DNA of 64,000 bases from Chloroflexota bacterium (GTDB lineage Bacteria; Chloroflexota; Anaerolineae; Anaerolineales; Villigracilaceae): the NCBI GenBank assembly GCA_016234485.1, contig JACRBL010000052.1:1-64000 (forward strand), given 5' to 3'. The translations under genes were made by a program, and so were the position numbers. How positions within the stretch are numbered: the first letter of the stretch is position 1; each line of letters begins with the position of its first letter. Below are positions 19,691 through 50,434 of this stretch, one piece after another. The notes beneath the pieces were generated by a model. That model was not told the DNA's origin. It saw nothing but the letters and a program-made list of their open reading frames with translations, and did not search any database.

Positions 19691-19725
19691 TAGCGGTTGG
19701 CGATTGGCAATTAGCGATTAGCAGT
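19691..19725. repeat. Heptamer tandem array (unit TAGCGAT)
   Basis: Five consecutive 7-mers: TAGCGGT, TGGCGAT, TGGCAAT, TAGCGAT, TAGCAGT. The first ends three bases before the methyltransferase ATG. The last units lie in the zinc-phospholipase-like gene, whose TAA stop is read from the array. Confidence 0.85.
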
Positions 19726-20344
19726 CAGTAAAGAGAGTAAGGTGACTGGGTGAGAGCGGAGCCATGGTTAGATCGAACTCAATCCTCGTCCGCTTGAGCG
19801 CGGCATGGAAGACGTAATCGAAATGCTGGCTGGTGGCGTGGCTGTCGTGGCTCATGTGGGCGTGCGAGTCTTTGGGGAGCAGGGGCAGGATGTGTTTTCG
19901 CAGGGGCGGGATGAAAACGAGCGCTTCGAGAGGATAGTAGAGTTTACCAGAGCGCAGGTCGGGGTGGTGGAGAATCTCGGAAGAAACCGGGTCCACTTCT
20001 TCGGGCGCGGGAGTCGTCCCGTTGTGGAAATGGGAAAGCCAGCGCGGGATGTAGTCGGTGTGGGCGTAGAAATCCTGCGCGGGGTGGAGCATCTGCCCGA
20101 AGGCCTGCCATGCGGATTCGCGCGCTCCGCGCGTCAAATGCGCGTGGACGAGGGCGCGTTGCTCTTCGATGTACGCGTAGGATTTTTCGAATTGGTTGTT
20201 GTCGAAATGAAAGTGATCGTGAAAAAGTTGATAGCGCAAACCATCCTGCGCGATGTTGGCGCGGACGATTGTATCGAGCGCGCGCGAGCTCACGTCCGCG
20301 GCGAGGGCCTGGCGGGTGATTTCGATATGATGGGGAATCAGCAT
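19718..20344 (-). CDS. Zinc-dependent phospholipase C-like protein
   Basis: A 208-residue soluble protein rich in ordered histidines: HHIEIT at the start, FHDHFHFDN, MLHPAQDFYAHTDY and a His-rich tail. The H-x3-D/H-x2-W-like arrangement fits the zinc-dependent PLC/S1-P1 nuclease/HET-C superfamily. No signal peptide, so the substrate is probably intracellular. It starts two bases after the stop of the cyclase gene. The last codons (FTDC) and the stop are supplied by the neighbouring heptamer array. Confidence 0.72.
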   Translation of the reverse strand: MLIPHHIEITRQALAADVSSRALDTIVRANIAQDGLRYQLFHDHFHFDNNQFEKSYAYIEEQRALVHAHLTRGARESAWQAFGQMLHPAQDFYAHTDYIPRWLSHFHNGTTPAPEEVDPVSSEILHHPDLRSGKLYYPLEALVFIPPLRKHILPLLPKDSHAHMSHDSHATSQHFDYVFHAALKRTRIEFDLTMAPLSPSHLTLFTDC

Positions 20345-20346
20345 CG

Positions 20347-23112
20347 CTACGACAACCCCATGAAGCGATAGACTTCCACCTGTTGTTCGCGTCCGCGCAC
20401 GCTGATGGGTTCGAGCGGCTCGGCTTTGATTTTGTCCGCGACGATTTCGTACGTGGATTTTTGCATCAAAATTTCGCCCGGCTCGGCTGTCACCTGCAAG
20501 CGCTGGGCGATGTTGACCGTGTCGCCGATGGCGGTGTAGTTAAAGAGGTCGCTGGTGCCCACGTTGCCGATGATGGCCGAACCGGTGGCAACGCCGATGC
20601 GAAAACTGAGGCGGTGTTCTGTCTCGTTGAAACTGCGGTGCAGTTCCGCCGAACGGAGCAAAATATCGTGGGCGGCGCGCACGGCGCGCAGGGCGTGATC
20701 TCCCTGCAAGTCGGGGCTGTTCCAAATGGCGAGGACGGCGTCGCCCATGAATTTATCGAGCGTACCTTCCTCTTTTAGCACGGCGTCCGCCGCGAGGGAG
20801 AGATAAGCGTTAAGAACTTTGAAGACAGTTTCCGGTTCTTGCTTTTCGCTGTAGGACGTGAAGCCGCTCAGGTCGGCGAAAAGGATGCTGACGGTTTCCT
20901 TGCTTCCGTCGAGGCGCAGGTTGCGCGGGTCGGCCAGCAGGCGGTCGCGAACGCGCGGGGCCACCACGCGGCCGAACGTCTGGCGGATGCGCTCTTGTTC
21001 GGCTTCGAGTTTGCGGCGCTCGGTCAAGTCTTCAAAGAAAATGGTCGCGCCCTTGGCGGAACGATAGGCGTCGAGCAGGGGCGCGCAAGAGACGCGCAGG
21101 GCCAGCTCGCCGCGCGCGGGGATGATGCGGGTGATCTCAGAGATGAAGACGGGCGCGCCTTGCATGGCGGCGGTTTCGGTGAGATAGAGAAAGTCGGAAT
21201 AGAGGCTGGGGAAGGCCTGTTCCATCGAACGGCCAATGACCTGATCCATGGGGATGCCGAGGATCTCTTCGGCGGCGTGATTGAAGAGCGTGATCTCGTG
21301 CGCCAGGTCGGTGGTGATGACGCCCGTGGCGATGGACGAGAAGATGTCGTCCATCAGGCTTTTCATTTCGAGGGTCTGATCCAGGGTGCGGCGCAGGTTG
21401 GCGAAGAGACGCGCGTTCTCAAGCGCCAGCGTGGACTGGGCCGCCACCGCCGCGAGGAAGTCGAGGTCGTCGCTGTTATAGAGTTCGCCCGAGCGGCGTG
21501 GGCCGAGAGCGAAGAATCCGATCAGGCGGCCTTCATAGAGAAGTGGGACGAAGGTAAAACCGAGCAACCGATCGTAGCCGCGCAGATCTTCGGGCAGGGG
21601 CATACCAGGGGAAAGCCAGAAGGGCGCGTGCGCTTTTTGAATGTGACGCACGAGCGGTTCGTCGGCGGGGTAGGCGGGGGCGCTGTCTTCGCGCGTGGCG
21701 TGGGGGAAATATTGCCCGTACTCGTCGTTGTAGAGGTAGATCACAAAGCGTTCAGGCGAGAGGGCCTGGTGCAGTTGCTCTTCGAGCAGGCGTAGAATAT
21801 GCGTCAGGTCGGGGGTGACGACGAGACTGCGTGACAGGCTTGTGAGAGCGCGGCGGTAATCGGCGGGGGCGCGGTAGAAGAGGCGGTCTATGGCGCGCTG
21901 GATCAGGTCGCGGACGGGGATGAGCCCCACCGCAAGGATGACGAGAAAGAGTCCAATCACCAGTGGGTTGTCGGCGCCGATACTCTCTTCGATTAGGTAG
22001 GATATGAGGGCGATGAGACCGTAAAAGGTCCCGAGCGCGATGCCCATGGTCAGCAGGTAGGCGAGTGCGCGGCTAAAGATGCGGTCTACGTCCAGCAGGC
22101 GATAGCGCACGATGGCGTACGTCACCGAGAGCGGGAGGAAGACCAGCATGGGGAAGAAAAATCCGCCCTGAAACTCGGGGATGGATGAACTAAAGACGAT
22201 CGGGATGAGGTAGAGAGTGAAAACGGGGATGAAAGCGATGGTGCTTCCGAAAATGATCACGCGGCTTTGCTGGCGCACAATAGCCGACTGGCTACGGACA
22301 ATGCGTACGAAGAGCGTACCTCCAAAAAGGAGCATGGAAAAGAGAATGAAGGCGTACCCCGTGATCCATAATTGCACGTAGCCCAGCGGCTCTTTTGGAG
22401 AAATAAGTTCAAGCGCGGTTGCGGCGCTGAGCGCCAGCACGAACAGCCAGGGGATGTAGCGCAGGTAGGGGCGGCGATCTACGAAGGGCATTTGCTGGGG
22501 GAAGACCAGCGCCAAATGCGCCAACGCGCCCGCACCCACCGAGATGCTCAACGCCCACAGGATCACGGCGTGGTGCGTTGTGTTCATGTCGAGGAAGGTG
22601 GTGGTGAGGACCGAGACAGCGGCGGTAAAGGTCACGAAAGCGCGGCTCGCCCGCAGGTCCGAGCGGATGCGATAGGCCCACAGGCCGGTCAGCAGGAAGA
22701 CCAGTCCTGTCAGATATGGAATGATGAATGTTGTGAGCAGACTGCCGAATGGAAAACGGATCGGCGTGATCGTTAGGATGTAGGCTCCCCCTGTTGGTTT
22801 TACAAATTCGGCTTGCACAGGCGCGAAACCGTTGGCCTTAAGGAAGGCGCTCACCTCGTCTGCATTGCCCACCAATTTACCATTTAACTTTACCAGCTGG
22901 TCTGACCAGTTCGCGCCCATGTTCCGCGCCGGCCAGCCGGCCTCGTCTATTTGCGAAACGATGTTGTTCGGTTCGAGCAAAACGCCCAGAAAGGGTTGAC
23001 GCACCCACTCCAGCGCCCAAAATGGCGTGAGCGCCAGCATCGCGAGCGCGATGACGATCGCGGCCAGCGGCACGGCATGTTCGAACCATGAAGCGCGCGT
23101 CCCAGGTTGCAT
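20347..23112 (-). CDS. Membrane receptor adenylate/guanylate cyclase with GAF and PAS domains
   Basis: A protein of 921 residues if started at MQPGTRASW. TM1 is near 15-40, followed by a PDZ-like periplasmic segment (about 45-110) and then seven to eight membrane helices (about 120-400). A GAF domain (about 430-590), a PAS domain (about 605-715) and a class III cyclase domain (about 740-921) complete it. The cyclase has both metal aspartates (FADLSGFT and GDAVLAIWN) and a GVATGSAIIGNVG segment. It probably senses envelope signals and makes cAMP or cGMP; the nucleotide cannot be decided here. Confidence 0.88.
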   Translation of the reverse strand: MQPGTRASWFEHAVPLAAIVIALAMLALTPFWALEWVRQPFLGVLLEPNNIVSQIDEAGWPARNMGANWSDQLVKLNGKLVGNADEVSAFLKANGFAPVQAEFVKPTGGAYILTITPIRFPFGSLLTTFIIPYLTGLVFLLTGLWAYRIRSDLRASRAFVTFTAAVSVLTTTFLDMNTTHHAVILWALSISVGAGALAHLALVFPQQMPFVDRRPYLRYIPWLFVLALSAATALELISPKEPLGYVQLWITGYAFILFSMLLFGGTLFVRIVRSQSAIVRQQSRVIIFGSTIAFIPVFTLYLIPIVFSSSIPEFQGGFFFPMLVFLPLSVTYAIVRYRLLDVDRIFSRALAYLLTMGIALGTFYGLIALISYLIEESIGADNPLVIGLFLVILAVGLIPVRDLIQRAIDRLFYRAPADYRRALTSLSRSLVVTPDLTHILRLLEEQLHQALSPERFVIYLYNDEYGQYFPHATREDSAPAYPADEPLVRHIQKAHAPFWLSPGMPLPEDLRGYDRLLGFTFVPLLYEGRLIGFFALGPRRSGELYNSDDLDFLAAVAAQSTLALENARLFANLRRTLDQTLEMKSLMDDIFSSIATGVITTDLAHEITLFNHAAEEILGIPMDQVIGRSMEQAFPSLYSDFLYLTETAAMQGAPVFISEITRIIPARGELALRVSCAPLLDAYRSAKGATIFFEDLTERRKLEAEQERIRQTFGRVVAPRVRDRLLADPRNLRLDGSKETVSILFADLSGFTSYSEKQEPETVFKVLNAYLSLAADAVLKEEGTLDKFMGDAVLAIWNSPDLQGDHALRAVRAAHDILLRSAELHRSFNETEHRLSFRIGVATGSAIIGNVGTSDLFNYTAIGDTVNIAQRLQVTAEPGEILMQKSTYEIVADKIKAEPLEPISVRGREQQVEVYRFMGLS

Positions 23113-23141
23113 GCGGCGATTATACGACACACTTGCGTTGT

Positions 23142-23197
23142 CCCGCAGTTCAACTGCGGGAGAAATCGCGCGTTGTTCCGCAGTTCAACTGCGGAAC
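23142..23197. repeat. Two tandem GCAGTTcAACTGC palindromes
   Basis: CCCGCAGTTCAACTGCGGG (23142-23160) and GTTCCGCAGTTCAACTGCGGAAC-type (23175-23197) share the core CCGCAGTTCAACTGCGG. They occupy the divergent promoter region between the cyclase and cobalamin adenosyltransferase genes. Confidence 0.85.
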
Positions 23198-23222
23198 GAA
23201 CCCGCCAGAGTATAATGCCCGC

Positions 23223-23765: not shown

Positions 23766-23854
23766 CCCTGTCCTTCGACTACGACGCCGACAATCACGGC
23801 GTCTCCGCTCAGGACGACGAATCCTAAATGTGACCAGTAACTGCGAGACTATAT

Positions 23855-24562: not shown

Positions 24563-24592
24563 TAGTTAAAAAGAAGTGACGCGGCATTCCTC

Positions 24593-27885: not shown

Positions 27886-27887
27886 AT

Positions 27888-29452: not shown

Positions 29453-29483
29453 CAGTGTACTGATAACTGATCACTGATCACTG
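29453..29483. repeat. Heptamer tandem array (unit TGATCAC)
   Basis: Runs TGATAAC, TGATCAC, TGATCAC, TGG after CAGTGTAC. It is the same unit family as the arrays at 40386-40420 and 50350-50381. The lyase gene ends in it: its last codons read ACC AGT GAT CAG TGA. Confidence 0.88.
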
Positions 29484-30922
29484 GTTTTCGTCATCGAGTC
29501 TAAAAGGTCTAACACCAATTCCTTCAAATCCCCTCGATTTGGGAGCGAGCCAATTAATCCATACATCGGCGCCATGCGACTTGGGAGTCCGCCTCCTCCG
29601 CCCAACAATGCAGACGCTTTTGACATCAGGCGACTCATCCATTCCTCGGGCAGGACGCGCGTCAACACGTTCGCCGCGCGGACGATGAGGCGGGTCGCGG
29701 TTTTCTGAATCGTCGGCCTGCGGACGGTGTCCGCGCACGCGGCGAGGTTGCGCAGAAATTCGTCAGCCACCTCGTTGTGGACGAAGTTGACGGTCATGTG
29801 CAAACAGGCGGGGAATTGTTGCCGATCGAGATGCCAGCCGCGCAGGGAGAGTTCGTCCGCGAGCTGATACACGTCCATCGAATCGGACGCGAGCGCGAAG
29901 ACGCTCATTTCGGGGTCGCTGAGAATTTTCAAGCCAGGGATGGCGCGGATTCCCGCTTGCAGGTATTGCACCGTTTCCATCACCTGCTGGTTGATCTCCA
30001 GATATCCCTCCTCGCCAAGATAACGCAAGATCGCCCACGCGGCCGCGATCGGTCCCGCGGGACGCGTGCCTGCCATCGTCGGCGAGGGATAGATTCCGCC
30101 AGGCCAGTCCGTGCTGACGAACATCTGGTGGCGGCGCAGAGCCGAATCTTTGTAGAGGATGACCGACGCGCCTTTGGCGGCGTATCCGTATTTGTGCAGG
30201 TCGGCGGAGATGGACGTGACGCCTGGGACGGAGAAATCGAAGTCGGGGACGGCGTAGCCGAGTTTCTTCAAGAACGGCAGGACGAAGCCGCCCACGCACG
30301 CGTCGGTGTGGAAGAGCAGGCCGCGTTCCTGCGCGAGCGCGGCGAGTTCGCGGATCGGATCCACCACGCCATGCGGGTAGGACGGCGCCGAGCCGACCAT
30401 CAGGATCGTGTTCGGCGTGATGGCCGCGCGCATCGCGTTCCCGTCCGCGCGGAAGTCGGCGCGGACGGGCGTCTTCACCACGCGCAGGCCAAAATATTCG
30501 GCGGCCTTTTCGAGCGCGGGGTGCGCGGTGACGGGCATCAGGATTTCTGGCGCGCTCACGTCGGGACGGTTCTTCCGCGCCCAATCGCGCGCTGTCTTGG
30601 CCGCGCACAGCAGGCTCTCGGTGCCGCCCGAGGTCACATTGCCCGCGGTCTTTTCATCCCCGCCGAGCAGGGAGGCGGTCATCGCCACGATCTCGGTCTC
30701 GAATTTTCGCAGGCTGGGAAAGGCGGTGGGATTGAGACCGTTTTCGGAGAAAAACAGGTTCGACGCCTCTTTGAGCAGTTCATCTATCTCATCGTTGATG
30801 TGATAGACCAACCCAAAGACGCGGCCGTGATGCCATTCAACATCATGGTCGCGCGCGGCGCGCATGGACGAGAGGACATCCTCCCTCGGTGATCCTTGTT
30901 TGGGAAATGGCAAGATAGACAC
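29471..30922 (-). CDS. Sphingosine-1-phosphate lyase-like PLP enzyme
   Basis: A 483-residue group II PLP-dependent decarboxylase-family protein. The start is GTG 30922, 8-9 bases after AAGGAGG; the in-frame ATG further up lacks an RBS. It has GNVTSGGTESLL (phosphate cup), HTDAC with D207, SISADLHKYG with PLP-binding K244, and a YAAKG loop, as in sphingosine-1-phosphate lyases. Bacterial homologues exist in organisms with or without sphingolipids, so the real substrate may be another phosphoethanolamine-like or amino acid compound. The last four residues (TSDQ) come from a heptamer array. Confidence 0.87.
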   Translation of the reverse strand: MSILPFPKQGSPREDVLSSMRAARDHDVEWHHGRVFGLVYHINDEIDELLKEASNLFFSENGLNPTAFPSLRKFETEIVAMTASLLGGDEKTAGNVTSGGTESLLCAAKTARDWARKNRPDVSAPEILMPVTAHPALEKAAEYFGLRVVKTPVRADFRADGNAMRAAITPNTILMVGSAPSYPHGVVDPIRELAALAQERGLLFHTDACVGGFVLPFLKKLGYAVPDFDFSVPGVTSISADLHKYGYAAKGASVILYKDSALRRHQMFVSTDWPGGIYPSPTMAGTRPAGPIAAAWAILRYLGEEGYLEINQQVMETVQYLQAGIRAIPGLKILSDPEMSVFALASDSMDVYQLADELSLRGWHLDRQQFPACLHMTVNFVHNEVADEFLRNLAACADTVRRPTIQKTATRLIVRAANVLTRVLPEEWMSRLMSKASALLGGGGGLPSRMAPMYGLIGSLPNRGDLKELVLDLLDSMTKTSDQ

Positions 30923-31025
30923 AGACGTGACCTCCTTCGGCGGGGCAAGTGTAGCATGGAATTTTATTTGAACGTGAAAATTCCCTGATTGTGGGGACGG
31001 TTGTATAATCCACGCGGAGGAAAAT

Positions 31026-40385: not shown

Positions 40386-40447
40386 GATCAGTTATTAGTG
40401 AGCAGTTTTCAGTGATCAGTGAGGATACGAGTTACAAGTTACGACTT
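40386..40447. repeat. Two adjacent heptamer arrays (GATCAGT, then ACGAGTT)
   Basis: GATCAGT, TATTAGT, GAGCAGT, TTTCAGT, GATCAGT (40386-40420), a 6-base joint, then ACGAGTT, ACAAGTT, ACGACTT (40427-40447). This is the 5' region of ftsK. Confidence 0.88.
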
Positions 40448-40562
40448 GTGGGAATTGGTTCCCATGTGTACTTGTCTACGCTCTTCTTTCGACGCAAAAA
40501 ATTATAGCACAAATGGTCGGTTTTTCTTAAGGTACAATTGGCGCGCATTCGAAAACCATCGC

Positions 40563-40620
40563 CACAGATTACACAGATTGGCACAGATTTATCCAATCTG
40601 TGTAATCTGTGAAAATCTGT
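40563..40620. repeat. CACAGATTA palindromic array
   Basis: CACAGATTA-CACAGATTGG-CACAGATTT on one side and AATCTGTGT-AATCTGTGA-AAATCTGTGG on the other form an inverted repeat of 9-10-mers, upstream of the RNase Z gene. A repeat type seen in many environmental genomes. Confidence 0.85.
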
Positions 40621-40647
40621 GGCAACATTTCATCAAGGATTTTTTCA

Positions 40648-41562
40648 TTGTTCGAAATTCTTTTCCTCGGCACTTCCGCTTCGGCCCCTTCTGCCAAGCG
40701 CGGGCTTTCGGCGCAGATTGTCAGCCACAATGAGTATCGCTTTCTCGTGGACTGCGGCGAGGGGACTCAGCGCCAGATCCTGCAATCGGGCATCGGATTC
40801 AAACGCCTGACGCGCATCCTGCTGACGCACGGACATCTCGATCACATTCTCGGGTTGGGCGGGTTGCTGTCCACGTTTCTGCGCTGGGAAGCGATCGAAG
40901 AATTGGAAATTTACGGTGGACGCCAGACTCTCGACCGCGTCCACGATCTGCTTTACGGGGTGGTCTTGCGCGGCAATCAACCGCCCATGCCGTTGCGACT
41001 TACCGAGATCAAGCCAGGTAAATTTTTCGAGACGGAGGATTTTTCCGTCACCGCCTTCCCTGTGACGCATCGCGGGCCAGACTGTCTCGGCTACGCGTTC
41101 GAGGGCAAGGCGCGCCGTCCGTTCCTCTCCGAAAAAGCGGACGCGCTGGGCGTGCCGTTCGGCCCCGAACGAAGCAAGTTGGTGGCAGGCGAGGCGATCA
41201 CGCTGGCGGACGGGAAACGCGTCTCACCGGACGATGTGCTGGGGCCGTTCGAGCGCGGCGCGAAACTGGTGGTGGTGGGCGACGCGGGCCGCACGGACGA
41301 TATCCTCGAAACCTGCCGCGGCGCCGACGCGCTGGTGATCGAGTCCACGTATCTGGATGAAGAAGCGGACATGGCGAAGCAGTTCTCGCATCTGACGGCG
41401 CGCATGGGCGCGGAGTTGGCGATCAAGGCGGGCGTGAAGAAGTTGATCCTGACACATCTCTCGCGGCGCTACCGCGAAAAAGACGTGCTGGCGCAGGCGC
41501 AGGCGATTTTCCCCAATGTGTCGGTGGCGCGGGATTTTGATGTGTTTCAGGTGAAGAGGTAG
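40648..41562 (+). CDS. rnz: Ribonuclease Z (tRNA 3' endonuclease)
   Basis: A 304-residue metallo-beta-lactamase-fold RNase Z. I take TTG 40648 as start because the family N-terminus (FEILFLGTSASAP) begins there and AAGGA lies about 10 bases upstream; ATG 40609 lies in the repeat region and adds foreign residues. Zn ligands: THGHLDH (H61, H63, D65, H66), FPVTHRG, VVGDAGRT and LTHLSRRY. Processes tRNA 3' trailers, which matters here since the tRNA-Arg gene lacks an encoded CCA. Confidence 0.9.
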   Translation: MFEILFLGTSASAPSAKRGLSAQIVSHNEYRFLVDCGEGTQRQILQSGIGFKRLTRILLTHGHLDHILGLGGLLSTFLRWEAIEELEIYGGRQTLDRVHDLLYGVVLRGNQPPMPLRLTEIKPGKFFETEDFSVTAFPVTHRGPDCLGYAFEGKARRPFLSEKADALGVPFGPERSKLVAGEAITLADGKRVSPDDVLGPFERGAKLVVVGDAGRTDDILETCRGADALVIESTYLDEEADMAKQFSHLTARMGAELAIKAGVKKLILTHLSRRYREKDVLAQAQAIFPNVSVARDFDVFQVKR

Positions 41563-41570: not shown

Positions 41571-41594
41571 GTACACAGGTACACACGTACACAG
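41571..41594. repeat. Octamer array (GTACACAG)
   Basis: GTACACAG, GTACACAC, GTACACAG, immediately after the RNase Z stop. Related to the octamers at 43193-43216 and 47461-47497 (complement CTGTGTAC). Confidence 0.88.
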
Positions 41595-41687
41595 GTTTTC
41601 TCCCCAACCACAGCCCTCCGAAGCCGCGCGGGAAAGGTAAACAGGTGGATATCCAGAGGCAAGGTCGCGGGTGCGCGCAAATGATGA

Positions 41688-41815
41688 CCAGCGGATTGCT
41701 TCGCGAAGCGGATAAGCGGATAACGCGCTCCGAATCCGCTTATCCGCTTCCTATCCGCTGGTCACTCCTCCCCAATCACAGACCTCCGAAGCCGCGCAAG
41801 CTTCGGAGGTCTTGT
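41688..41815. repeat. Large inverted repeat with AGCGGATA octamers, plus hairpin
   Basis: ACCAGCGGAT (about 41688) is complementary to ATCCGCTGGT (about 41753-41762). Inside are AGCGGATA repeats (41707-41722) and their complements TATCCGCT. GACCTCCGAAG/CTTCGGAGGTC (about 41784-41814) forms a separate hairpin. The whole 41563-41884 gap contains repeats and no gene. Confidence 0.75.
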
Positions 41816-41884
41816 AGTTGGTCAGGTTGGTGTTGCCGAGGTCAATGGCGAGGGGCATGGGGTTTCGCACAGGTAGCACGGGAT

Positions 41885-43021
41885 TCATATATTTATTAAT
41901 CTTGTAATCAGATCAATACCTATTGAAGTGACACTTGGAATGATAGGTCCAGTTACGAGACTAATAAACTTCCTTAGATTATTTTTGTTAAAAGGCCATA
42001 CAGGAAATTGACTTACGATTTTATGTTCTTCCTCTAACAAACGCAATTTCTTTATTAAGGACTCTAAAACTTCAGTATCCAACGAATCGGATTTCTGTAA
42101 ATTTTTCAATAGCACGTTAATCATTGTGGAAATATTTTTTAGCAAAGAGTCTCTATATTTAATCATTGCGCGACGTGCGCTATTTATTGTTAAATAAAAC
42201 AATGTTGGAGCAAAAATTATATATAGAATGAGCCCCAATAATTTTTGAAAATAAACCAATCCCAAAGTAGTTACCCCATTGGGCGCATTAGTGCTGAGCA
42301 AACTTGCGGAAACTTCTACTCCTAAAGCCCCAATTAATATGCCAAGACTAGCGATGAAGCGACCAATGATACCCAATCCTCCAGCATTATCCGGGTGAAA
42401 CGGTTCTACGCGAATTCCCAATCTACCAAATACTTCATTAACCATTTTAATTATTATTGCTAAGTCAAACGAAAACATTAATAATACATATAACGTTATG
42501 AAAGCCGGAATAGCGCGAGCCCAAGGTAATATTGGAGAAACAGATATCCATCCTGTATAAGTGGGATCGGACGGACCAGGAGTAGCCCATGCAAAAAAAA
42601 CAGCACATAGAAAACTTATTGTTGTAACAATTCGGGACAACCAACGGTTACGAAGCCAAGATTGGTACTTTATTGTTATTTCGTTTAACACGCTATTTCT
42701 TTCAATTATTCCTTCTGAAATCAGTGTTGTTAATAAATTATTCCCGACGGTTTGAATCCAGCAAAAGTAACCAACCAAAAAGGGTTGTGCTAAAAAATCA
42801 GACGCCCATACTATAGGTTCCCTGGATAATCCATGAGTTTTTGCGCCAGGGTAAAACGCACCAAAGCCAAATGCTAAAGATAGATCCAAGGCTAAATTAA
42901 AAAAAAGCATTAGTATGCCCGCTGTCCAAGGTTTTAAATTAAACCTTCGCATGGTATTTGAGAGCCAATCATTATTATTCAAGCCAACTTGGGGCAGTTT
43001 TAATTTTTTGGTTTCGCTCAT
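41885..43021 (-). CDS. AT-rich hypothetical membrane protein
   Basis: A 378-residue protein with about seven membrane helices. A striking EPFHPDNAGGLGIIGRF segment sits near residue 210, followed by a coiled-coil-like stretch (about 300-345). The HPDNAGGLG motif occurs in an uncharacterised membrane family. Base composition is much lower in GC than the flanks, and codons favour A/T, so recent acquisition is likely. Flanked by octamer arrays on both sides. Function unknown. Confidence 0.72.
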   Translation of the reverse strand: MSETKKLKLPQVGLNNNDWLSNTMRRFNLKPWTAGILMLFFNLALDLSLAFGFGAFYPGAKTHGLSREPIVWASDFLAQPFLVGYFCWIQTVGNNLLTTLISEGIIERNSVLNEITIKYQSWLRNRWLSRIVTTISFLCAVFFAWATPGPSDPTYTGWISVSPILPWARAIPAFITLYVLLMFSFDLAIIIKMVNEVFGRLGIRVEPFHPDNAGGLGIIGRFIASLGILIGALGVEVSASLLSTNAPNGVTTLGLVYFQKLLGLILYIIFAPTLFYLTINSARRAMIKYRDSLLKNISTMINVLLKNLQKSDSLDTEVLESLIKKLRLLEEEHKIVSQFPVWPFNKNNLRKFISLVTGPIIPSVTSIGIDLITRLINI

Positions 43022-43192
43022 TTTTCTTATTGGTGTTGTGCTTACATAATTAAAGGCAATTTGGGTGTTCTGAACATATGATTAGTCGGTATTTCCATCT
43101 GTTTGTATTATTATACCCTCTCCTCATAGATTTCCTTTAGCCTCGTCTAGTTGCGGAAAGCACAGGGATAAGCCCAAACCCACACGTAACCC

Positions 43193-43216
43193 CTGTCTAC
43201 CTGTGTACCTGTCTAC
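43193..43216. repeat. Octamer array (CTGTGTAC)
   Basis: CTGTCTAC, CTGTGTAC, CTGTCTAC. The TAG stop of the BHMT/MTHFR gene (minus strand, 43213-43215) is read from the last unit. Confidence 0.88.
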
Positions 43217-45054
43217 GCTTTTACGCGTTCCACAATCTCCGCCACCAAATCATACCGATGAAACTGCGGCATGATATACACCCCCTGCGCCCACGGCTTG
43301 ACCTTCTGGATCAACTCCACCGCCAACTCCACGCCCACCTTTGCGGCGTCCTCGCCCGCGGCTTCCATGCGTCGAATCGACTCCTCGGGGATCGAAATCC
43401 CAGGCACCTCGTGATTCAAAAAGTTGGCGTGCTTGGCGCTCACCAGCGGCAGGATTCCCACCAGCACAGGACGGTTCAACGCGCCGTGCTGTAACTCGTA
43501 CTTCGCCAAAAATCCCTCGCCGTCCTCCGCGCGGTAAATCGGTTGCGTCAGGAAATAATCCGCGCCCGCCTTCACCTTGCGCGTCAAATTCTTGAACTCG
43601 GTCGCCATGTCCGACGGAACCAAATTCAACGCCGCGCCCACGAAGAAATTCGTTGGCTGTCCAATGGACGTGCCAGAATGATCCACGCCCACGTTGAATC
43701 CCTGCTTGATCAACTTGATCAAACCCGACGGCACCAAATCATAATTGTCCATCGCTTCGGGGTAATCGCCAATCGAAGTCGGGTCGCCCATCACCACAAA
43801 CACATTTCTGATTCCCAACGCGTGCGCGGCCAGCAGGTCACCCTGCACGCGCAACAGGTTTCGTCCGCGCGTCGGAAAATGCAAAGTCGTTTCGACTCCC
43901 TGCCTCTGCACCACGTCGCACACCGCCCACGCCGACATCCGCATGCGCGCCATCGGGCTATCGGCCACGTTGATAACGTCCGCGCCCGCGTCATGCAACA
44001 GCGACGCGCCCGCCAGCAGTTTGTGAGTCGACAGTCCGCGCGGCGGATCCATTTCGATGGAGATGACGAATTTCCCCGCCGCGAGTTTTTGCGCCAATTC
44101 TGACGGAGGCAACGCGCCCTCCATCGCTTCCTCCTCGACGGGGAGCGGGGCCACCGTCAACGGAGCGGGCGCGCCCGCCGACGCCAACGCGCGCCGCATG
44201 GACGCGATGTGCGCGGGCGTCGTCCCACAGCACCCACCGACCACGTTCGCTCCCGCCTCGCGGAACGACAACGCATACTCGCCAAAATATTCCTCGTCCG
44301 CGGGATACATGATTCGCCCGCCGACCTGCTCAGGCCACCCCGCGTTCGGCTTCACCCAGAAGTGTTTATTAGGCGCGGCGGACTTCATCGCCTTCAAAAT
44401 CCGCAACAACTGTGCGGGACCTCCCGAACAGTTGACGCCGATCACGTCCGCGCCTGCCTCGGCCAACGTCCGCGCGACTTTGGCGGGATCGTCGCCGAGA
44501 ATCGTTCTGTCATCGCGCGTAAACGTCACCGACGCGACGACGGGCAACGTGCAAGTTTCCCGCGCGGCTTTGATCGCTTCCTTGATTTCGTAGAGGTCGC
44601 TCATGGTCTCGATCACGATCAAATCCGCGCCCGCGTCAGCCAGCGCGGAAATCTGCTCGGCGAACGCGGCCCGCGCGAGGTCAGGTTGGACGCGTCCGTA
44701 CGGGGCGATGCGCACCCCGAGAGGTCCGATATCGCCCGCCACCAGCACATCCTTAAACGAAGCGGACACCGCGCGCTTGGCGAGTTCCACGCCCGCGCGG
44801 TTGATTTCTGTGAGGCTTTTTTCCAATCCGTGCTTTTCCAACTTGAAGCGATTGGCGCTGAACGTGTTGGTGATAACGAGTTGCGCGCCCGCTTCAATAT
44901 ATTCGCGGTGAATATCCGCGACGGAGGCGGGGTTGGTGAGATTGAGCTCGTCGAAGCACTTGTCAAAGCCAATGCCGCGTCCGTGCAACATCGTTCCCAT
45001 CGCCCCGTCCGCGAGGATGGTTTGGGAGGAGAGTAGTTCTAAGAATTTATTCAT
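43213..45054 (-). CDS. Bifunctional homocysteine S-methyltransferase / 5,10-methylenetetrahydrofolate reductase
   Basis: A 613-residue fusion like B. subtilis YitJ, starting at ATG 45054 after GAGGTAACC. The homocysteine methyltransferase domain (about 1-290) has zinc ligands in GVNCSGG and GGCCGTTP. The MTHFR domain (about 320-613) begins ISIEMDPPRG and has NVADSP, MGDPTSIGDYP and FFVGAALN flavin/folate contacts. It can feed methyl-THF to MetH or methylate homocysteine directly. Last gene of the methionine unit controlled by the SAM-I riboswitch; the intervening gaps are short. Confidence 0.93.
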   Translation of the reverse strand: MNKFLELLSSQTILADGAMGTMLHGRGIGFDKCFDELNLTNPASVADIHREYIEAGAQLVITNTFSANRFKLEKHGLEKSLTEINRAGVELAKRAVSASFKDVLVAGDIGPLGVRIAPYGRVQPDLARAAFAEQISALADAGADLIVIETMSDLYEIKEAIKAARETCTLPVVASVTFTRDDRTILGDDPAKVARTLAEAGADVIGVNCSGGPAQLLRILKAMKSAAPNKHFWVKPNAGWPEQVGGRIMYPADEEYFGEYALSFREAGANVVGGCCGTTPAHIASMRRALASAGAPAPLTVAPLPVEEEAMEGALPPSELAQKLAAGKFVISIEMDPPRGLSTHKLLAGASLLHDAGADVINVADSPMARMRMSAWAVCDVVQRQGVETTLHFPTRGRNLLRVQGDLLAAHALGIRNVFVVMGDPTSIGDYPEAMDNYDLVPSGLIKLIKQGFNVGVDHSGTSIGQPTNFFVGAALNLVPSDMATEFKNLTRKVKAGADYFLTQPIYRAEDGEGFLAKYELQHGALNRPVLVGILPLVSAKHANFLNHEVPGISIPEESIRRMEAAGEDAAKVGVELAVELIQKVKPWAQGVYIMPQFHRYDLVAEIVERVKA

Positions 45055-45071
45055 GGTTACCTCGTTTACAA

Positions 45072-45914
45072 CTAACCTGCAAAAAATTTCATCCCCACCA
45101 CAATCCACAACCCAATCACCGCGGCGATCGTCTCAGGGACGGACGCGACGATCGCGAGCAAGACGCCCACCCAGGAATGGAGCAACACGTAGGGCGAGAG
45201 ACACGGCGAGGCGGCCATGGCGTATTCGATCTTCTGTTTGCGGATCGACGCCACGAACAGCGCCAACCCCACAGGGATGGACATCGGCCACAGGCTGGCG
45301 TTCCACCAATAGTCCGCGGTGCGACTCGAGCCGAGCGGCCATAAACCGTAGATCGCGAACGAAAGCGCCAGCACAATGGTGAACGGCGCGAACGTGACGA
45401 CGACCTGTTTCCATCCACCCTGGCGCCAGGCCTGGATCAACCAGAACGGCGCGACCGCGATTCCCATTTGCGGTTTGACAGAGATGAAGAACAGGCCAAA
45501 CTGCGGCGGAAGCACAAAGCCGAGCGCAGCGAGCCAATCGAGGTTGCCGTTCAGGAGCACGTGCATCACGGGCGGCGAGATGAGCAGGAAGATGGTGGCG
45601 ATGGGTTTGGCTCCAAGTTTGTGCGCGACATACGCGTAGGAGGCGAGTCCGCACAGGATGAGCATGACGCGCCCGACCGCTTCGGGGAGCAGCGCGAGCG
45701 GGATCAGCGGAAGCAGTCCCCACGGCGCGTGAATCATCCACGGATTGTCGAATGGGTCGCGGCCCGCCAGAAGGTCGAGCGTGGCGGGGCGGAAGGCGGT
45801 CGTCCAATCGATCGCGGGGGGCAGGTACGGCGCGGCGATGAAGCTGATCGTCAGCGCCGCGGCCAGGACGATCAGCGCACGCAGAAACACTTTGGAGTCA
45901 AAGTTGATTTTCAT
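45072..45914 (-). CDS. Hypothetical membrane protein (GT87/DUF2029-like)
   Basis: A 280-residue protein with about eight hydrophobic helices. An early extracytoplasmic LAGRDPFDNPWMI segment resembles the GT87/DUF2029 mannosyltransferase context but is shorter than that family's usual ~400 residues. Its start overlaps the metH stop (ATGA), and the BHMT/MTHFR gene starts 17 bases after it. A membrane protein wedged inside a methionine operon is unexpected; it may be a passenger. Confidence 0.7.
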   Translation of the reverse strand: MKINFDSKVFLRALIVLAAALTISFIAAPYLPPAIDWTTAFRPATLDLLAGRDPFDNPWMIHAPWGLLPLIPLALLPEAVGRVMLILCGLASYAYVAHKLGAKPIATIFLLISPPVMHVLLNGNLDWLAALGFVLPPQFGLFFISVKPQMGIAVAPFWLIQAWRQGGWKQVVVTFAPFTIVLALSFAIYGLWPLGSSRTADYWWNASLWPMSIPVGLALFVASIRKQKIEYAMAASPCLSPYVLLHSWVGVLLAIVASVPETIAAVIGLWIVVGMKFFAG

Positions 45915-48900
45915 TTCATCAATTGATCGATACGCGAATCGCCGACATTGTAATACGTCGCATCCTTGTGATGGACGATGATGGCAGCGGTGGATTGTTC
46001 GGGGATGAGTTGATAGGCGGCGCTGAGGATCATGCTGAGTTCTTTTTCGACGGGTAACAGATCGAAGACTTTGCGGTGGTCTTCCAACTCAGGGATGGCG
46101 GGATAGCCCCATGAGTAGCGTTTGCCCTGCTCTTCGGTCAGACCCAACTCGCGGCGGATGTGGCCATGGACATATTCCGCGGTCGCTTCGGCGGTTTGGA
46201 CGGCGAGGCCGTGCATGAAGTAACTTTCGGTGTAATCGCCCTTCGCGTGCAGGCGGTCAATGCGCTCGGTGGCTTCGCGTCCGACCGTCACGACCTGGAA
46301 GGCGACCACGTCCAGTTTGCCAGAATCAACGGGCGCGAAGTAGTCGGCGAGGCAGAGATGGTCGTCGAAGGTTTGGCGGGGGAAGTGGAAGCGGGTTACA
46401 GGTTGCAGGTTAGAAGGTTGAAAGTTGTCTGGCGAATAAACGATCAAATCATTGCCATCAGCTTGGCAGGGGAAATAGCCGTAGACGGCTTGGGGTCTGA
46501 GCCACGTTTCGCGATCGCGCAGGGCTTCGCGTTTCATTTTGTCGAGGCGGGCGTCGAACTCGGCTTTGAGTTTTGTCCACTCTTTGCCGTGGGTGTTCTT
46601 GGCTCCCCATGAGAGACGGTACAACTCGTTGATGCTGAGGTGCTTGAAGACCATCTCCAGCGGCATGTCTTTGACGACGCGGATGCCCCATTTGGTGGGA
46701 GGCGCGACGGGCGCGGGGACGATGCTTGAACGTTTAACGTTTAACGTTGAACGTTCAACGTTTTGGGTGGCGCGACCCACTTCCATGTCGGCTTCGCGGC
46801 GGAGTTTTGCGAGGAGGTCGGGTTTGCGCTGTGGGTCAATCAGCTTGTCCATCGTCTCGAGGCCTTCGAAGGCGTCCTTGCAATAGAAGACGCCAGGCTC
46901 GTGGGCGGATCCATCTTCGGTGAAGAGGATGCGGCGACCGAAGCGACGGTTGATGGCCGCGCCGCCGATGAGCACGGGGATCTGGTGTCCGCGGCGATGC
47001 AATTCGTTGACGATGAGCGGCATTTGCTTGGAGGTGCTGACCAGCAGGGCGGAAAGTCCGATGGCGGTGGCGTTGACTTCGACCGCTTTGGTGATGATCG
47101 TCTCGGCGGGGACTTGCTTGCCGAGGTCAATGACGGTGTAGCCGTTGTTGGCGAGAATCGTCTTGACCAGATTCTTGCCGATGTCATGCACGTCGCCGTA
47201 AACGGTGGCAATGACGACCGTGCCTTTGGTCACGCCTTCGACTTTTTCAAGATAATTCTCGAGGTGAGAGACGGTCTTCTTCATTACTTCGGCGGATTGA
47301 AGCACGAAGGGCAGGATGAGTTCGCCCGCGCCGAATTTGTCGCCGACTTCTTTCATGGCGGGGAGGAGGACGGTGTTGAGGGTGTGGACGGCGCGCTCAT
47401 GCGTGTTAGGAGTTAGGGGATAGGAGATAGGAGACGAGTCACGTGTTGCGAGTTCCGTGTCTACTTGTGTACCTGTGTACGTGTCTACTTGTCTACCGAT
47501 GATCTCATCAATATCCGCCTCAACGCCATCCTTCTTGCGGTGGACGATCTTCCAGTGCAAACGTTGTTCGGGGGTCATGCCCTCGGTTGGATCAGCGAGA
47601 GTGGATTCGGTGGAAGGCGCGACATTTTCAAAGTGTTCGATGTAACGCTGAAGCGCGTCCTTGCGACGATTGAAGAGCAGGTCTTCGCAGAGTTCTTTTT
47701 CTTCGGCAGGGATGTCGGCATACGCGGTGATATGAGCAGGATTCACGATTGCCATGTCCAGACCTGCCTGAACGCAGTGGTAAAGCATCACCGAGTTCAA
47801 AGGCGGACGGGCTTGCGGCGCAAATCCAAATGACAAGTTGCTCACGCCGAGCGAGGTCAACACGCCAGGCAATTCCTGTTTGATGAGGCGGATGCCTTCG
47901 ATGGTTTCAATCGCGGAGTTGGCAAATTCTTCGTCGCCCGTCGCGAGGGTGAACGTCAGCGTGTCGAAGACCAACGCGTCGGGACGAAGTCCGTGGTCGT
48001 TGACGGCGATGTCGTAGATTCGTTTGGCGACTTCGAGTTTTGTCTCGCGGGTCTTGGCCATGCCGTTCTCGTCAATGGTCAGCACGATGACTGCGGCGTT
48101 GTGAGTCTTGGCGAGGGCGAAAATCTTATCCGCTTTGGCGCGGCCTGCTTCGAGATGCGTGGAGTTGATGAGACAGCGGCCAGGCGCGGTTTGGAGGGCG
48201 ACTTCTAGCACATCGAGTTCGGTGGTATCTATCACGAGCGGGACGTCCACGCCCATCTCAAGTTTCTTGACGACCTTGCGCATGAGTTCCACTTCGTCGG
48301 GGCGTTCGGTGACCGCGCAGGAAATGTCGAGAGCGTGCGCGCCATACTCAACCTGTTCACGCGCGATCTCCAAAATGGAGTCGTAATCTTCCTCGAGCAG
48401 GAGACGTTTGAACTTGCGCGAACCCTGGGCGTTGCAACGTTCGCCGAGCAAGGTGGGGGGAGGATCCTGTCGCATGGCGATCGCTGACATGGCGGAGGCA
48501 AGCATGGGTGTCGCGGAGTGCGGAGGGCGTATTGCGTATTGCGTATTGCGTAATTTGTTTACGAGGAGGCGGAGGTGGTCGGGAGTTGTGCCACAACATC
48601 CGCCCACAACGGCAACATTATATTTTGTCACGAATTCGAACATGTCGTTGGCGAAGGGTTCGGGTTCGAGGGGGTAAACAGCTTGACCATCCACGTTGAG
48701 CGGCAGGCCCGCGTTGGGGATGCACGAAACGGGGAGCGTGGAATTTTCGCCGAGGATGCGGATGGGCTCGCGCATGTGCTCGGGTCCCGTGGAGCAGTTG
48801 AGGCCGATGACGTCGATGCCCATGCCTTCGAGGATGGCGAGCGAGGCGTTGATGTCGGTGCCGAGCAACATGCGACCTGTCGTGTCGAGCGTGACCTGAG

Positions 48901-49552
48901 CCTGGATCGGCAACCAGACTTGAGTCTCGTCCATGGCTTTGTGACAGCCGACGATGGCGGCTTTGACTTCGAGGATGTCCTGCGATGTTTCGATGAGGAG
49001 CAAGTCCACGCCGCCGCGGATGAGGCCGACGGCTTGCTCGCGGAAGACGTCAACCAATTCATCGAAGGTTACATTCGATAATTCGGGATCATTCGTTGAC
49101 GGCAATTTTCCTGAGGGGCCGATCGAGCCAGCGACGAAACGGGGGTGCGGGAGGCGGGAATCGATATTCGATATTCGAGATTCGGTAGTCGAGGTTCGAG
49201 TATCAAGTATCGAATATTCGTCAGCCAAGCGACGCGCCAATCTCGCCGCCGTCTCGTTGATCTCCAGTACGCGATCTTGCAGGCCGTATTCCGCCATCGT
49301 GATTCGATTCGAGCGGAAGGTGTCGGTCTCCAGCACGTCCACGCCGACTTCGAGGAAGGAGCGATGGACTTTTTCCACGGCTTCGGGATACGAGATGACG
49401 AGGTAGTCGTTACATCCGTTGTATTGCTCGCCGCCGAAATGCTCGGCGGTGAGGTTTTGCAGTTGCAGGCTCGTTCCCATCGCGCCGTCGAAGACGAGGA
49501 CTTTCTTTTCGAGGGCGTCGAGGTAACGGCGGTTGGTGTAGGTTCTATTCAT
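45911..49552 (-). CDS. metH: Cobalamin-dependent methionine synthase MetH (with repeat-encoded inserts)
   Basis: A 1213-residue, four-module MetH. The homocysteine domain (about 1-345) has zinc ligands GLNCSTGP and GGCCGTTP. The folate domain (about 360-650) has GERCNAQGSRKFK. The cap plus B12 domain (about 700-905) has DVHDIG, whose His ligates cobalt. The activation domain (about 955-1213) has the family signature RYSWGYPAIPELEDH. Methylates homocysteine with methyl-THF. It is longer in linkers than usual because five heptamer arrays are translated in frame (49161, 48527, 47405, 46729 and 46394). RBS GGAG precedes ATG 49552. Confidence 0.97.
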   Translation of the reverse strand: MNRTYTNRRYLDALEKKVLVFDGAMGTSLQLQNLTAEHFGGEQYNGCNDYLVISYPEAVEKVHRSFLEVGVDVLETDTFRSNRITMAEYGLQDRVLEINETAARLARRLADEYSILDTRTSTTESRISNIDSRLPHPRFVAGSIGPSGKLPSTNDPELSNVTFDELVDVFREQAVGLIRGGVDLLLIETSQDILEVKAAIVGCHKAMDETQVWLPIQAQVTLDTTGRMLLGTDINASLAILEGMGIDVIGLNCSTGPEHMREPIRILGENSTLPVSCIPNAGLPLNVDGQAVYPLEPEPFANDMFEFVTKYNVAVVGGCCGTTPDHLRLLVNKLRNTQYAIRPPHSATPMLASAMSAIAMRQDPPPTLLGERCNAQGSRKFKRLLLEEDYDSILEIAREQVEYGAHALDISCAVTERPDEVELMRKVVKKLEMGVDVPLVIDTTELDVLEVALQTAPGRCLINSTHLEAGRAKADKIFALAKTHNAAVIVLTIDENGMAKTRETKLEVAKRIYDIAVNDHGLRPDALVFDTLTFTLATGDEEFANSAIETIEGIRLIKQELPGVLTSLGVSNLSFGFAPQARPPLNSVMLYHCVQAGLDMAIVNPAHITAYADIPAEEKELCEDLLFNRRKDALQRYIEHFENVAPSTESTLADPTEGMTPEQRLHWKIVHRKKDGVEADIDEIIGRQVDTYTGTQVDTELATRDSSPISYPLTPNTHERAVHTLNTVLLPAMKEVGDKFGAGELILPFVLQSAEVMKKTVSHLENYLEKVEGVTKGTVVIATVYGDVHDIGKNLVKTILANNGYTVIDLGKQVPAETIITKAVEVNATAIGLSALLVSTSKQMPLIVNELHRRGHQIPVLIGGAAINRRFGRRILFTEDGSAHEPGVFYCKDAFEGLETMDKLIDPQRKPDLLAKLRREADMEVGRATQNVERSTLNVKRSSIVPAPVAPPTKWGIRVVKDMPLEMVFKHLSINELYRLSWGAKNTHGKEWTKLKAEFDARLDKMKREALRDRETWLRPQAVYGYFPCQADGNDLIVYSPDNFQPSNLQPVTRFHFPRQTFDDHLCLADYFAPVDSGKLDVVAFQVVTVGREATERIDRLHAKGDYTESYFMHGLAVQTAEATAEYVHGHIRRELGLTEEQGKRYSWGYPAIPELEDHRKVFDLLPVEKELSMILSAAYQLIPEQSTAAIIVHHKDATYYNVGDSRIDQLMK
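46394..46428. repeat. Heptamer array in metH activation domain (GGTTACA)
   Basis: GGTTACA, GGTTGCA, GGTTAGA, AGGTTGA, AAGTTGT on the plus strand. On the minus strand it encodes the insert NFQPSNLQPVT, in a loop between the DLIVYSPD and RFHFPRQ segments. Confidence 0.85.
46729..46763. repeat. Heptamer array in metH B12/activation linker (AACGTTT)
   Basis: AACGTTT, AACGTTT, AACGTTG, AACGTTC, AACGTTT: five perfect-period units. They encode the QNVERSTLNVKRS linker between the B12 and activation domains. Confidence 0.9.
47405..47497. repeat. Compound heptamer then octamer array in metH folate/cap linker
   Basis: Eight heptamers (GTTAGGA, GTTAGGG, GATAGGA, GATAGGA, GACGAGT, CACGTGT, TGCGAGT, TCCGTGT) run into octamers (CTACTTGT, GTACCTGT, GTACGTGT, CTACTTGT, CTACC). 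All are translated, giving RQVDTYTGTQVDTELATRDS and onward, in the linker before the B12 cap. Confidence 0.88.
48527..48554. repeat. Heptamer array in metH between homocysteine and folate domains (GCGTATT)
   Basis: GCGTATT three times, then GCGTAAT. Encodes RNTQYAIRPPHS-like linker residues. Confidence 0.88.
49161..49216. repeat. Heptamer array in metH homocysteine domain loop (TCGATAT)
   Basis: Eight units: TCGATAT, TCGATAT, TCGAGAT, TCGGTAG, TCGAGGT, TCGAGTA, TCAAGTA, TCGAATA. Encodes SILDTRTSTTESRISNIDS, in a surface loop before RFVAGSIGP. Confidence 0.9.
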
Positions 49553-49600
49553 AAATCTCCTAAATTTTTAGCCGCGAATTTCACGAAGTAACACGAATTT

Positions 49601-50089: not shown

Positions 50090-50252
50090 GGTTCTTCCTT
50101 TCGTAGCGATGGCTTGCGTCATAATTCTATGGTTTGGATATCTTCCAGCGCTGACCTCGCCCCGGGTTGACCTCGGCGCGAATTAGCGCGGAGCGCTTCG
50201 TATGTCAGCACGGGTGATTTTATCCCCGTGCGGCCTTCGGGCTAATGCCTGT

Positions 50253-50285
50253 AACAAAATCGCCTCTCGATGATGAGAGGCGACA
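50253..50285 (-). terminator. Terminator of the SAM-I riboswitch
   Basis: Minus strand CGCCTCTC...GAGAGGCG then ATTTTGTT. Its 5' arm (CTCTCATC) is complementary to the 3' strand of aptamer helix P1 (GATGAGAG), giving the mutually exclusive antiterminator. Confidence 0.9.
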
Positions 50286-50303
50286 TGAAAACACAGAGGT
50301 CAT

Positions 50304-50434
50304 CTCTCATCTCCCAGACACATAGTCTGCCGAAATTGGCACCGTCTTCACTGATCACTGATAACTGAACACTGATCACTGCTTGGTTGCCGAGGCGTCA
50401 AAGGGTCGGTCCCTCAGCCTCTCTGGATGAGTCT
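50304..50434 (-). promoter_or_regulatory. SAM-I (S-box) riboswitch with an array in P3
   Basis: Minus-strand landmarks: P1 GACTCATC/GATGAGAG, AGAGGCTGAGGGACCGACCC, TTTGACGCCTCGGCAACC, GGTGCCAATTTC, then GGCAGA and GGGAGATGAG. These are the invariant SAM-I core. Between GGCAACC and GGTGCC the P3 loop is filled by the ACTGATC heptamer array. Binding SAM should release the terminator at 50253 and shut off the metH unit. The 50152-50252 leader stretch holds GCACGGG/CCCGTGC-type hairpins of unknown role. Confidence 0.93.
50350..50381. repeat. Heptamer array inside the SAM-I aptamer (ACTGATC)
   Basis: ACTGATC, ACTGATA, ACTGAAC, ACTGATC, ACTG. It occupies the P3 loop only and leaves all SAM-contacting positions intact. 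Confidence 0.9.

Follow-up and report, generated by a model that had tools for sequence, protein, structure and literature searches.

The 64-kb window analysed here, positions 1–64,000 of contig C35 of an Anaerolineales (Chloroflexota) genome (the source genome, G000; 4.46 Mb, 94% complete), carries short tandem arrays with a period of 7 bp. These period-7 arrays are real, and their units form a recurrent, genome-specific dictionary in which each genome has its own favoured words. At orthologous loops of conserved genes, period 7 mostly persists while the letters turn over. Dispersal of the arrays, in-frame tolerance, genome-specific words, conservation of the period with turnover of the letters, and resizing mostly in unit steps were all observed. 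We hypothesize that these are dispersed miniature elements of the short tandemly repeated repetitive (STRR) type, which would be written or copied in, replace older arrays and later be resized by slippage; we give this reading an even chance.

Detection of period-7 arrays

Arrays were detected with Tandem Repeats Finder (TRF) and with a stricter lag-run score (cut-off 12 or more), runs of N being dropped from the analysis. The original prediction had listed 13 places with 7-bp or 8-bp arrays. TRF reported period-7 or period-8 arrays at 12 of them, the exception being 40427, which received no separate report. Eight also passed the lag-run cut-off, namely the 7-bp loci 29453, 46729, 47405, 48527, 49161 and 50350 and the 8-bp loci 41571 and 47461; the other five (7-bp loci 19691, 40386, 40427 and 46394, and 8-bp locus 43193) scored below it. 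Ten Markov-3 simulations of the window yielded a mean of 0.0 arrays for each lag, compared with the six lag-7 and two lag-8 arrays scoring at least 12 in the real sequence.

A wider sample of the source genome, 464 kb made up of the window and 400 kb of contigs C31 and C8 that were not selected for arrays, contained 33 lag-7 and 6 lag-8 arrays; a single Markov-3 simulation produced none at either lag. Among the remaining lags from 5 to 20, lag 18 gave eight arrays and all others at most five. Plain autocorrelation over the whole window has no peak at lag 7 (0.249, compared with about 0.29 at multiples of 3), because the arrays make up less than 1% of the DNA. The 7- and 8-bp arrays of the source genome have a GC content of 0.41, versus 0.57 for the window.

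A genome-specific dictionary of words

Among 36 lag-7 arrays sampled in the source genome, 23 units recur exactly, in canonical form, in another array, whereas random genomic heptamers or letter-shuffled units do so in 0–4 cases of 36. The idea that every locus has its own, unrelated unit is not right: the arrays at 29459, 50350 and, as the reverse complement, 40386 are built from one unit, ACTGATN, and the 8-bp arrays at 41571, 43193 and 47461 belong to one family, GTANACAN/TGTNTACN. The variety emphasized by the prediction nevertheless held, with 22 distinct canonical units among the 36 arrays.

Words were counted across 41 genomes, the source genome and 40 relatives, as matches, of which one array may yield several. 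The palindromic AACGTTN, in three copies, has 56 matches per strand in the source genome and 0–4 in the relatives. CAATTAC is found 72 times in G023, 23 times in G002 and 11 times in the source genome, and GTANACAN 1,068 times in G005, 512 times in G006, 41 times in the source genome and not at all in G003; reversed controls gave 0 matches in the searches for all three words. The ACTGATN pattern, ACTGATNACTGATNACTG, has 55 matches in the source genome (0 for the reversed pattern), 139 in G006, 114 in G023 and 102 in G005. Of the four tested words, ACTGATN, CAATTAC, AACGTTN and GTANACAN, not one occurs in the congener G003, which is 97% complete and offers a natural reference that is poor in arrays.

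In a broader set of 200 relatives, ACTGATN is present in 92, and its distribution is patchy: members of one genus may have anywhere from 0 to more than 100 matches. With the pattern reversed as a control, most but not all of these relatives gave 0 matches; it matches up to 20 times in G148, G026, G040 and G182, so a TAGTCAN-type heptamer is another word there.

Orthologous loops keep the period and replace the letters

Twenty-four AACGTTN loci were read in the source genome, 19 of them with a spanning open reading frame (ORF) of at least 150 aa (L383, L384 and L387 judged doubtful). Orthologs were sought in the congeners G001 and G002 for 14 of the 19, which yielded 22 orthologous loop segments from 13 loci (one paralog, L412, was dropped, and no ortholog was found for L159). 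When six lags (4, 5, 7, 8, 10 and 11) were compared, lag 7 was the sole best in 19 of the 22 segments and tied in 2, and it exceeded shuffles at P<0.05 in 17. In 405 control segments elsewhere in the same loci, lag 7 was the sole best in 18.6% and reached P<0.05 in 7.2%. AACGTT itself is present in just 2 of the 22 congener loops. The claim of the original prediction that the period is conserved rather than the letters is thus borne out.

The arginyl-tRNA synthetase (ArgS) loop is an example: it has four AACGTT cores in the source genome, where G001 has a GGTTACG array that is just as long. The array region of SelB shows zero net length change relative to two orthologs without a significant lag-7 signal, implying either that the array was laid over an equally long stretch or that its predecessor had decayed.

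metH and other array-bearing genes

All arrays from 46394 to 49161 lie within a single gene, metH, a point that the prediction had missed. The gene houses five in-frame array sites (Table 1), at linkers where other species have different arrays. We kept 80 named relatives of metH, mostly Anaerolineales, Anaerolineae or Chloroflexi, with one Herpetosiphon. Among 99 distinct orthologs there are 82 inserts of at least 5 residues, nearly all confined to a few linkers; 19 of these inserts contain arrays scoring at least 10, and 15 of the 19 have lag 7. A scan of the whole metH genes found 49 lag-7 or lag-8 arrays across the five linkers. A single linker varies by species, holding other heptamers, 8-bp arrays, GC-rich palindromes or even a DUF559 nuclease domain. 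Since inserts at a given linker vary by species, the metH arrays cannot be ordinary coding sequence that is fixed across distant relatives.

G023 carries CAATTAC at all five metH linkers. Units were more alike within species than after permutation (2.30 versus 3.20, the near-duplicate L091 of L090 being left out), an effect driven mostly by G023, without which the value is 3.07. In an AlphaFold model of MetH residues 1–760, the predicted local distance difference test (pLDDT) score falls below 50 at the array-encoded residues 120–134 (first linker) and 689–714 (third linker, 8-bp array), as well as at 373–377, 648–653 and the cut end; the second-linker array is predicted as coil with higher confidence. 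Low pLDDT in the inserts is partly expected anyway because insert columns have few aligned sequences.

In the sample as a whole, 22 of 42 arrays lie inside predicted ORFs, compared with 83% of random windows, and 19 of the 20 outside ORFs lie within 50 bp of an ORF end. Array-bearing genes include those for PriA (three arrays) and an SbcC/Rad50-like protein; in-frame arrays were found in the genes for MetH, PriA, MutL, RecJ, ArgS and SelB. Pfam analysis of ten AACGTTN loci placed arrays between domains in MutL, phosphomannomutase, a 2-oxoacid dehydrogenase acyltransferase and an oxidoreductase, and inside domain boundaries in ArgS, RecJ and SelB.

These positions bear on whether the arrays might be selected binding sites, with a protein reading the fixed 4–6 bases at a 7-bp pitch, purifying selection holding the core and the other base drifting. 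Such a protein would account for a fixed core with free positions, for the concentration of variation in few unit columns (3.28 observed versus 4.28 expected in 132 arrays) and for arrays near gene edges; regulatory roles have also been proposed for TAACTGA repeats in the sections of PMC4679880 considered here. It fits poorly with arrays inside the six coding regions named above, with words that mostly differ in coding arrays between congeners, with many words per genome and with the lack of all four tested words in G003. We consider selected binding sites quite improbable, and selection for a 7-bp phase, one of the causes offered by the prediction, gained no support.

The free seventh base and the role of slippage

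Each unit consists of a fixed word of about 4–6 bases together with one free position or a few, and the period is 7 or, less often, 8. In the 24 AACGTTN arrays the free base (n=88) is evenly distributed: G 23, T 22, C 22 and A 21. Identical neighbours number 9 of 64, compared with 16.0 expected, and distinct letters within arrays total 72, compared with 61.6 at random (P=0.0002); the excess remains with perfect cores only (57 versus 50.2, P=0.006) and when five extra loci are included (85 versus 73.6; perfect cores, 68 versus 61.2). Neighbouring ACTGATN units in the source genome are independent, with 11 of 39 identical and 11.8 expected. Birth by slippage fits poorly with a seventh base that is even and more varied than chance, and the over-diversity itself may reflect loss of homogeneous arrays through slippage.

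Block copying among AACGTTN arrays was considered and rejected. In 23 loci (L371 shortened, L376 left out), 28 of 253 pairs share free-base triples, a weak excess over the 18.5 of a uniform expectation (P=0.03) and none that is significant over within-locus shuffles (22.8, P=0.16).

The published local slippage hypothesis (the LSSR view; PMC4679880 and PMC4692102, in the parts considered) holds that polymerase slippage with a built-in preference for 7-nt steps expands a pre-existing local sequence. It draws on whole-unit copy changes between close genomes, on block duplications in long G005 arrays, on homogeneous arrays in G176, G163 and a pooled viral set, and on a weak similarity of units to their flanks. 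It does not account for the recurrent dictionary, for genome-specific words at unlinked loci, for a single word at the five metH linkers of G023 or for the over-diverse AACGTTN and independent ACTGATN bases, and a MutS hit is present in 39 of 41 genomes, the source genome included. We regard local slippage as an unlikely origin: slippage exists, but in our reading it did not create the arrays of the source genome. The many-site process envisaged by the prediction stands, as does later slippage in copy number; slippage as the whole cause of birth does not.

Several observations weigh against arrays that are written or copied in. No enzyme or template for array formation was found among the candidate genes compared with ACTGATN counts across the 41 genomes. 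Among the matches listed, ACTGATN neighbours are homogeneous in G163 (6 of 9 identical versus 2.9 expected), and the pooled viral array set, from which ten phage-like records were left out, is homogeneous as well (55 of 83 versus 28), in part because pooling mixes genomes with different bases. Across all array families in four genomes, adjacent units are more often identical than non-adjacent ones (0.53 versus 0.45). Together with the G163 and viral arrays and the G005 block duplications, this means that slippage clearly contributes. Units also match the sequence on either side of them slightly better than they match control flanks (5.43 versus 5.11 of 7, P=0.005), which fits local seeding. 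Lag 7 is not significant in five of the 22 orthologous loops, and 106 kb of aligned sequence from the close pair G002/G007 contains no clear filled-versus-empty insertion. Finally, of 12 AACGTTN loci that were examined in relatives, 4 have an AACGTTN locus of the source genome as their ortholog, and some share free bases (G006 PriA agrees at both shared ones), so part of the set is old rather than a fresh burst.

The identity of neighbouring copies expected of young slippage microsatellites is seen in G176, G163 and the viral pool and not in AACGTTN and ACTGATN of the source genome. Among the ACTGATN matches listed, G160, G172, G047, G075 and G027 show no significant excess of identical neighbours, G040 leans homogeneous and G176 is monomorphic.

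Weighing both sides, we return to miniature array elements that are written or copied in. In the source genome, arrays would have been born in this way and not slipped from local sequence, with the free base set at birth in a partly untemplated step. New arrays would replace older ones at the few places that tolerate them, so that period and reading frame persist while the letters turn over. Later slippage and unequal exchange would resize the arrays and may remove homogeneous ones. The arrays do recur at loci that are not linked, and a minority form inverted pairs arranged head to head.

Stability, inverted pairs and phages

G002 and G007 are about 97–99% identical over most of the 106 kb aligned. 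Differences amount to 5 of 374 bases at array sites and 1,238 of 104,639 elsewhere (one replaced metH tract left out), so that hypermutation of the arrays was not seen in this pair. Copy number does change: one indel is a 7-bp unit, 8-bp arrays differ by 16 bp and by 5 bp, and metH differs by 21 bp in-frame; the 5-bp change is not a whole unit. One metH linker is wholly replaced and its flanks are divergent too, which looks like recombination. Comparisons of L058/L060 and L029/L030 likewise revealed no clear case of a site filled in one and empty in the other.

Of 86 arrays, 16 have an inverted partner no more than 100 bp away, compared with 3–5 after shuffling, and some units are themselves near-palindromic. 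Eight head-to-head pairs of GTANACAN arrays were counted in 200 kb of G005. Among the viral matches listed, a tailed-phage genome (with a tape-measure protein) has inverted CAGTNNN/ACTGNNN arrays in intergenic gaps, in both orientations, and phages could thus move arrays between hosts. The tailed-phage records L259, L325, L275, L261, L308, L279 and L326 overlap at 100% identity and carry up to 2.7 heptamer arrays per kb; the gaps that were read run from [CAGTNNN]n through a TTTGC-rich spacer to [ACTGNNN]n, and both orientations occur.

Candidate drivers

A DUF559 nuclease was rejected as the driver: two of 23 array-positive genomes (G018 and G022) are without it, and its counts are uncorrelated with those of ACTGATN (rho 0.23 in the 41 genomes, 0.10 within the family). 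Copy number of the Y1 transposase (Y1_Tnp) is uncorrelated as well (rho 0.13). Loss of mismatch repair is not the cause in the source genome, which has MutS; the array-rich G021 lacks a MutS hit, and ACTGATN counts did not track MutS across the 41 genomes.

Reverse transcriptases (RVT_1) were likewise rejected as the driver. They bear on the possibility that a dedicated polymerase, telomerase-like or otherwise templated, copies short RNAs into arrays, its product entering the chromosome. A fixed word with a free base and genome-specific words would suit such an enzyme; according to the part of PMC12632851 considered here, the bacterial reverse transcriptase DRT10 makes tandem-repeat DNA, with a 9-nt period in one system. 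RVT_1 counts correlate weakly with ACTGATN (rho 0.38, P=0.015, 41 genomes), and for one G002 reverse transcriptase the best class-specific match is UG17, to which DRT10 belongs, at 163 bits compared with 176 for the generic reverse transcriptase model. The correlation weakens when only the family is considered (rho 0.30, P=0.15) or only the family outside the genus (rho 0.12), and 6 of 23 array-positive genomes lack an RVT_1 hit. The classes are mixed: 10 of 20 fetched enzymes were classed, as group II-like, UG21, UG19 and short unclassified, and the two reverse transcriptase ORFs of the source genome best match a homing-endonuclease (group II-like) model and UG21, not UG17. A templated polymerase of this kind appears highly improbable to us.

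We speculate, as a rather unlikely option, that Anaerolineales possess an undescribed writing system. At each step its enzyme would copy six (or four to seven) bases of a species-specific word from a template and add one more base without a template, giving a period of 7 or 8; upon a change of word it would write anew the arrays already present in the same protein loops and gene gaps.

DUF559 nuclease domains with flanking GC-rich palindromes were also seen in-frame inside unrelated host proteins: metH (L106, L107, L110/L140, L113/L139), PIG-L (L135), an APH-fold phosphotransferase (L137) and UvrA (L145). After duplicate DUF559 places were dropped, an upstream hairpin (stem score at least 11) was found at 18 of 29 loci, compared with 5.5% of 200 control upstream regions, and a downstream one at 10 of 27. 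This combination looks like a nuclease-palindrome mobile element with a REP/RAYT-like layout.

Comparison with known systems

Cyanobacterial STRR heptamers have a period of 7, are dispersed and vary in length between relatives. The prediction had named them as the closest case, which is a fair comparison, and ACTGATA is a rotation of TAACTGA, the unit of the repeats of Beggiatoaceae, Cyanobacteria and Bacteroidetes, for which no mechanism is known in the sections of MacGregor 2015 (PMC4679880) considered here. Those sections describe dispersed short arrays, mostly intergenic with some in ORFs, and a patchy distribution; the source genome likewise has dispersed tandem 7-bp units that are patchy among close relatives. 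In TAACTGA repeats, by the same sections, one word dominates and single-base variants rarely form arrays, whereas the source genome has many words whose seventh base is free, with some arrays in inverted pairs and many in frame. Arrays of the STRR/TAACTGA type use few kinds of unit in a genome, unlike the 22 distinct units in 36 arrays here. Chloroflexota go unmentioned in these sections.

Heptamers are over-represented in many bacterial genomes, according to the part of PMC4692102 considered, and the GGGNATC repeats of Xanthomonas and Nostoc described there share period 7, dispersal, variable length, a free position and inverted examples with our arrays. They are G-rich, quadruplex-forming and over-represented in intergenic regions, unlike the AT-richer words of the source genome. 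The four-copy heptanucleotide elements of Geobacter metallireducens (PMC2700814, in part) lie within and between genes, have one consensus word per class and a putative regulatory role, and the portion considered compares no orthologous loops. The tandem repeats of Subirana and Messeguer (PMC8161180, in part) similarly combine a constant repeat length with sequence that varies between families and species, but their units are 52 or 20–21 nt long, versus 7 in the source genome. DRT10 resembles our system as a bacterial enzyme writing short tandem repeats from a template; its complementary DNA (cDNA) serves defence, has a 9-nt period in the main example and is not described as chromosomal arrays in the part of PMC12632851 considered, and neither reverse transcriptase of the source genome is DRT10-like. 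In a search of open-licence literature by title and start of abstract, we found neither orthologous loops with a kept period and a changed word nor heptamer arrays in Chloroflexota.

A palindromic element with a Y1 transposase (REP/RAYT) does not match our arrays, in which inverted pairs are a minority and Y1_Tnp is uncorrelated. Rickettsia palindromic elements are in-frame repeats inside conserved proteins, with a conserved palindromic sequence. Our arrays share the in-frame position inside conserved proteins; unlike those elements, the 24 AACGTTN arrays have no shared flank, by eye, beyond the word, and metH inserts differ between species. With slippage microsatellites our arrays share whole-unit copy differences between close relatives.

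Features of the window

The arrays of the window are collected in Table 1. Three further features were noted there. An inverted 9/10-bp array, CACAGATTN ... AATCTGTGN, lies at 40563–40621 between ftsK and the next ORF, where a hairpin is possible. An inverted pair of 8-bp repeats, AAGCGGAT and ATCCGCTT, occupies 41706–41749. A 378-aa ORF between arrays (41885–43021, minus strand) has no Pfam match and coincides with a low-GC patch (0.457 at 42001–44000).

Table 1. Tandem arrays and the metH gene in the 64-kb window.
Feature	Position	Strand	Context	Basis
TTAGCGA-like 7-bp array	19690..19722		between the start of a DNA methylase ORF (18816–19688, −) and the next ORF	TRF score 38; below stricter cut-off
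ACTGATN 7-bp array	29459..29483	+	overlaps 3′ end of pyridoxal phosphate (PLP)-decarboxylase ORF (29471–31078, −)	TRF, lag-run score
Degenerate 7-bp array GATCAGT (reverse complement of ACTGATN)	40386..40422	−	few bases upstream of ftsK (38066–40381, −; Pfam FtsK)	TRF score 39, 66% match; below stricter cut-off
ACGAGTT, 2–3 degenerate copies	40427..40449	+	beside 40386	sequence read; alone not significant
8-bp unit TGTNTACN, two copies	40465..40479	+		sequence read
8-bp array GTACACAN	41571..41596	+	8 bp past stop of ORF 40609–41562 (+)	TRF, lag-run score
8-bp array CTGTNTAC	43192..43216	+	3′ end of homocysteine methyltransferase/MTHFR ORF (43213–45108, −; Pfam)	TRF; below stricter cut-off
metH, B12-dependent methionine synthase, 1213 aa	45911..49552	−	array-encoded linker segments	expected Pfam domains
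In-frame array GGTTNNA (coding strand CAACCTT)	46394..46420	−	metH fifth linker	TRF score 31
In-frame array AACGTTN (NVERSTLNVKR)	46729..46763	−	metH fourth linker	TRF, lag-run score
In-frame array GTTAGGA/GATAGGA	47405..47434	−	metH third linker	TRF, lag-run score
In-frame 8-bp array GTANACAN	47458..47497	−	metH third linker, beside 47405	TRF, lag-run score
In-frame array TACGCAA (GCGTATT)	48513..48552	−	metH second linker	lag-run score
In-frame array CGAATAT/TCGATAT	49161..49199	−	metH first linker	TRF, lag-run score
ACTGATN 7-bp array	50348..50381	+	intergenic	TRF, lag-run score

Biological significance

Heptamer arrays were already on record from various, scattered bacteria, with no mechanism known for them. 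The genus studied here offers a testable system: G003 has none of the four tested words and other members have tens to a thousand matches of particular words, and conserved genes have loops spelled with different words by species. An even seventh base and a conserved period help to tell birth by slippage from writing or copying, which homogeneous arrays cannot do. Conserved proteins are seen to absorb repeat DNA in-frame. If a writing system does operate in Anaerolineales, its mark would be an even, over-diverse seventh base, a switch of word throughout the genome, and orthologous loops in which period and frame persist but the letters do not.

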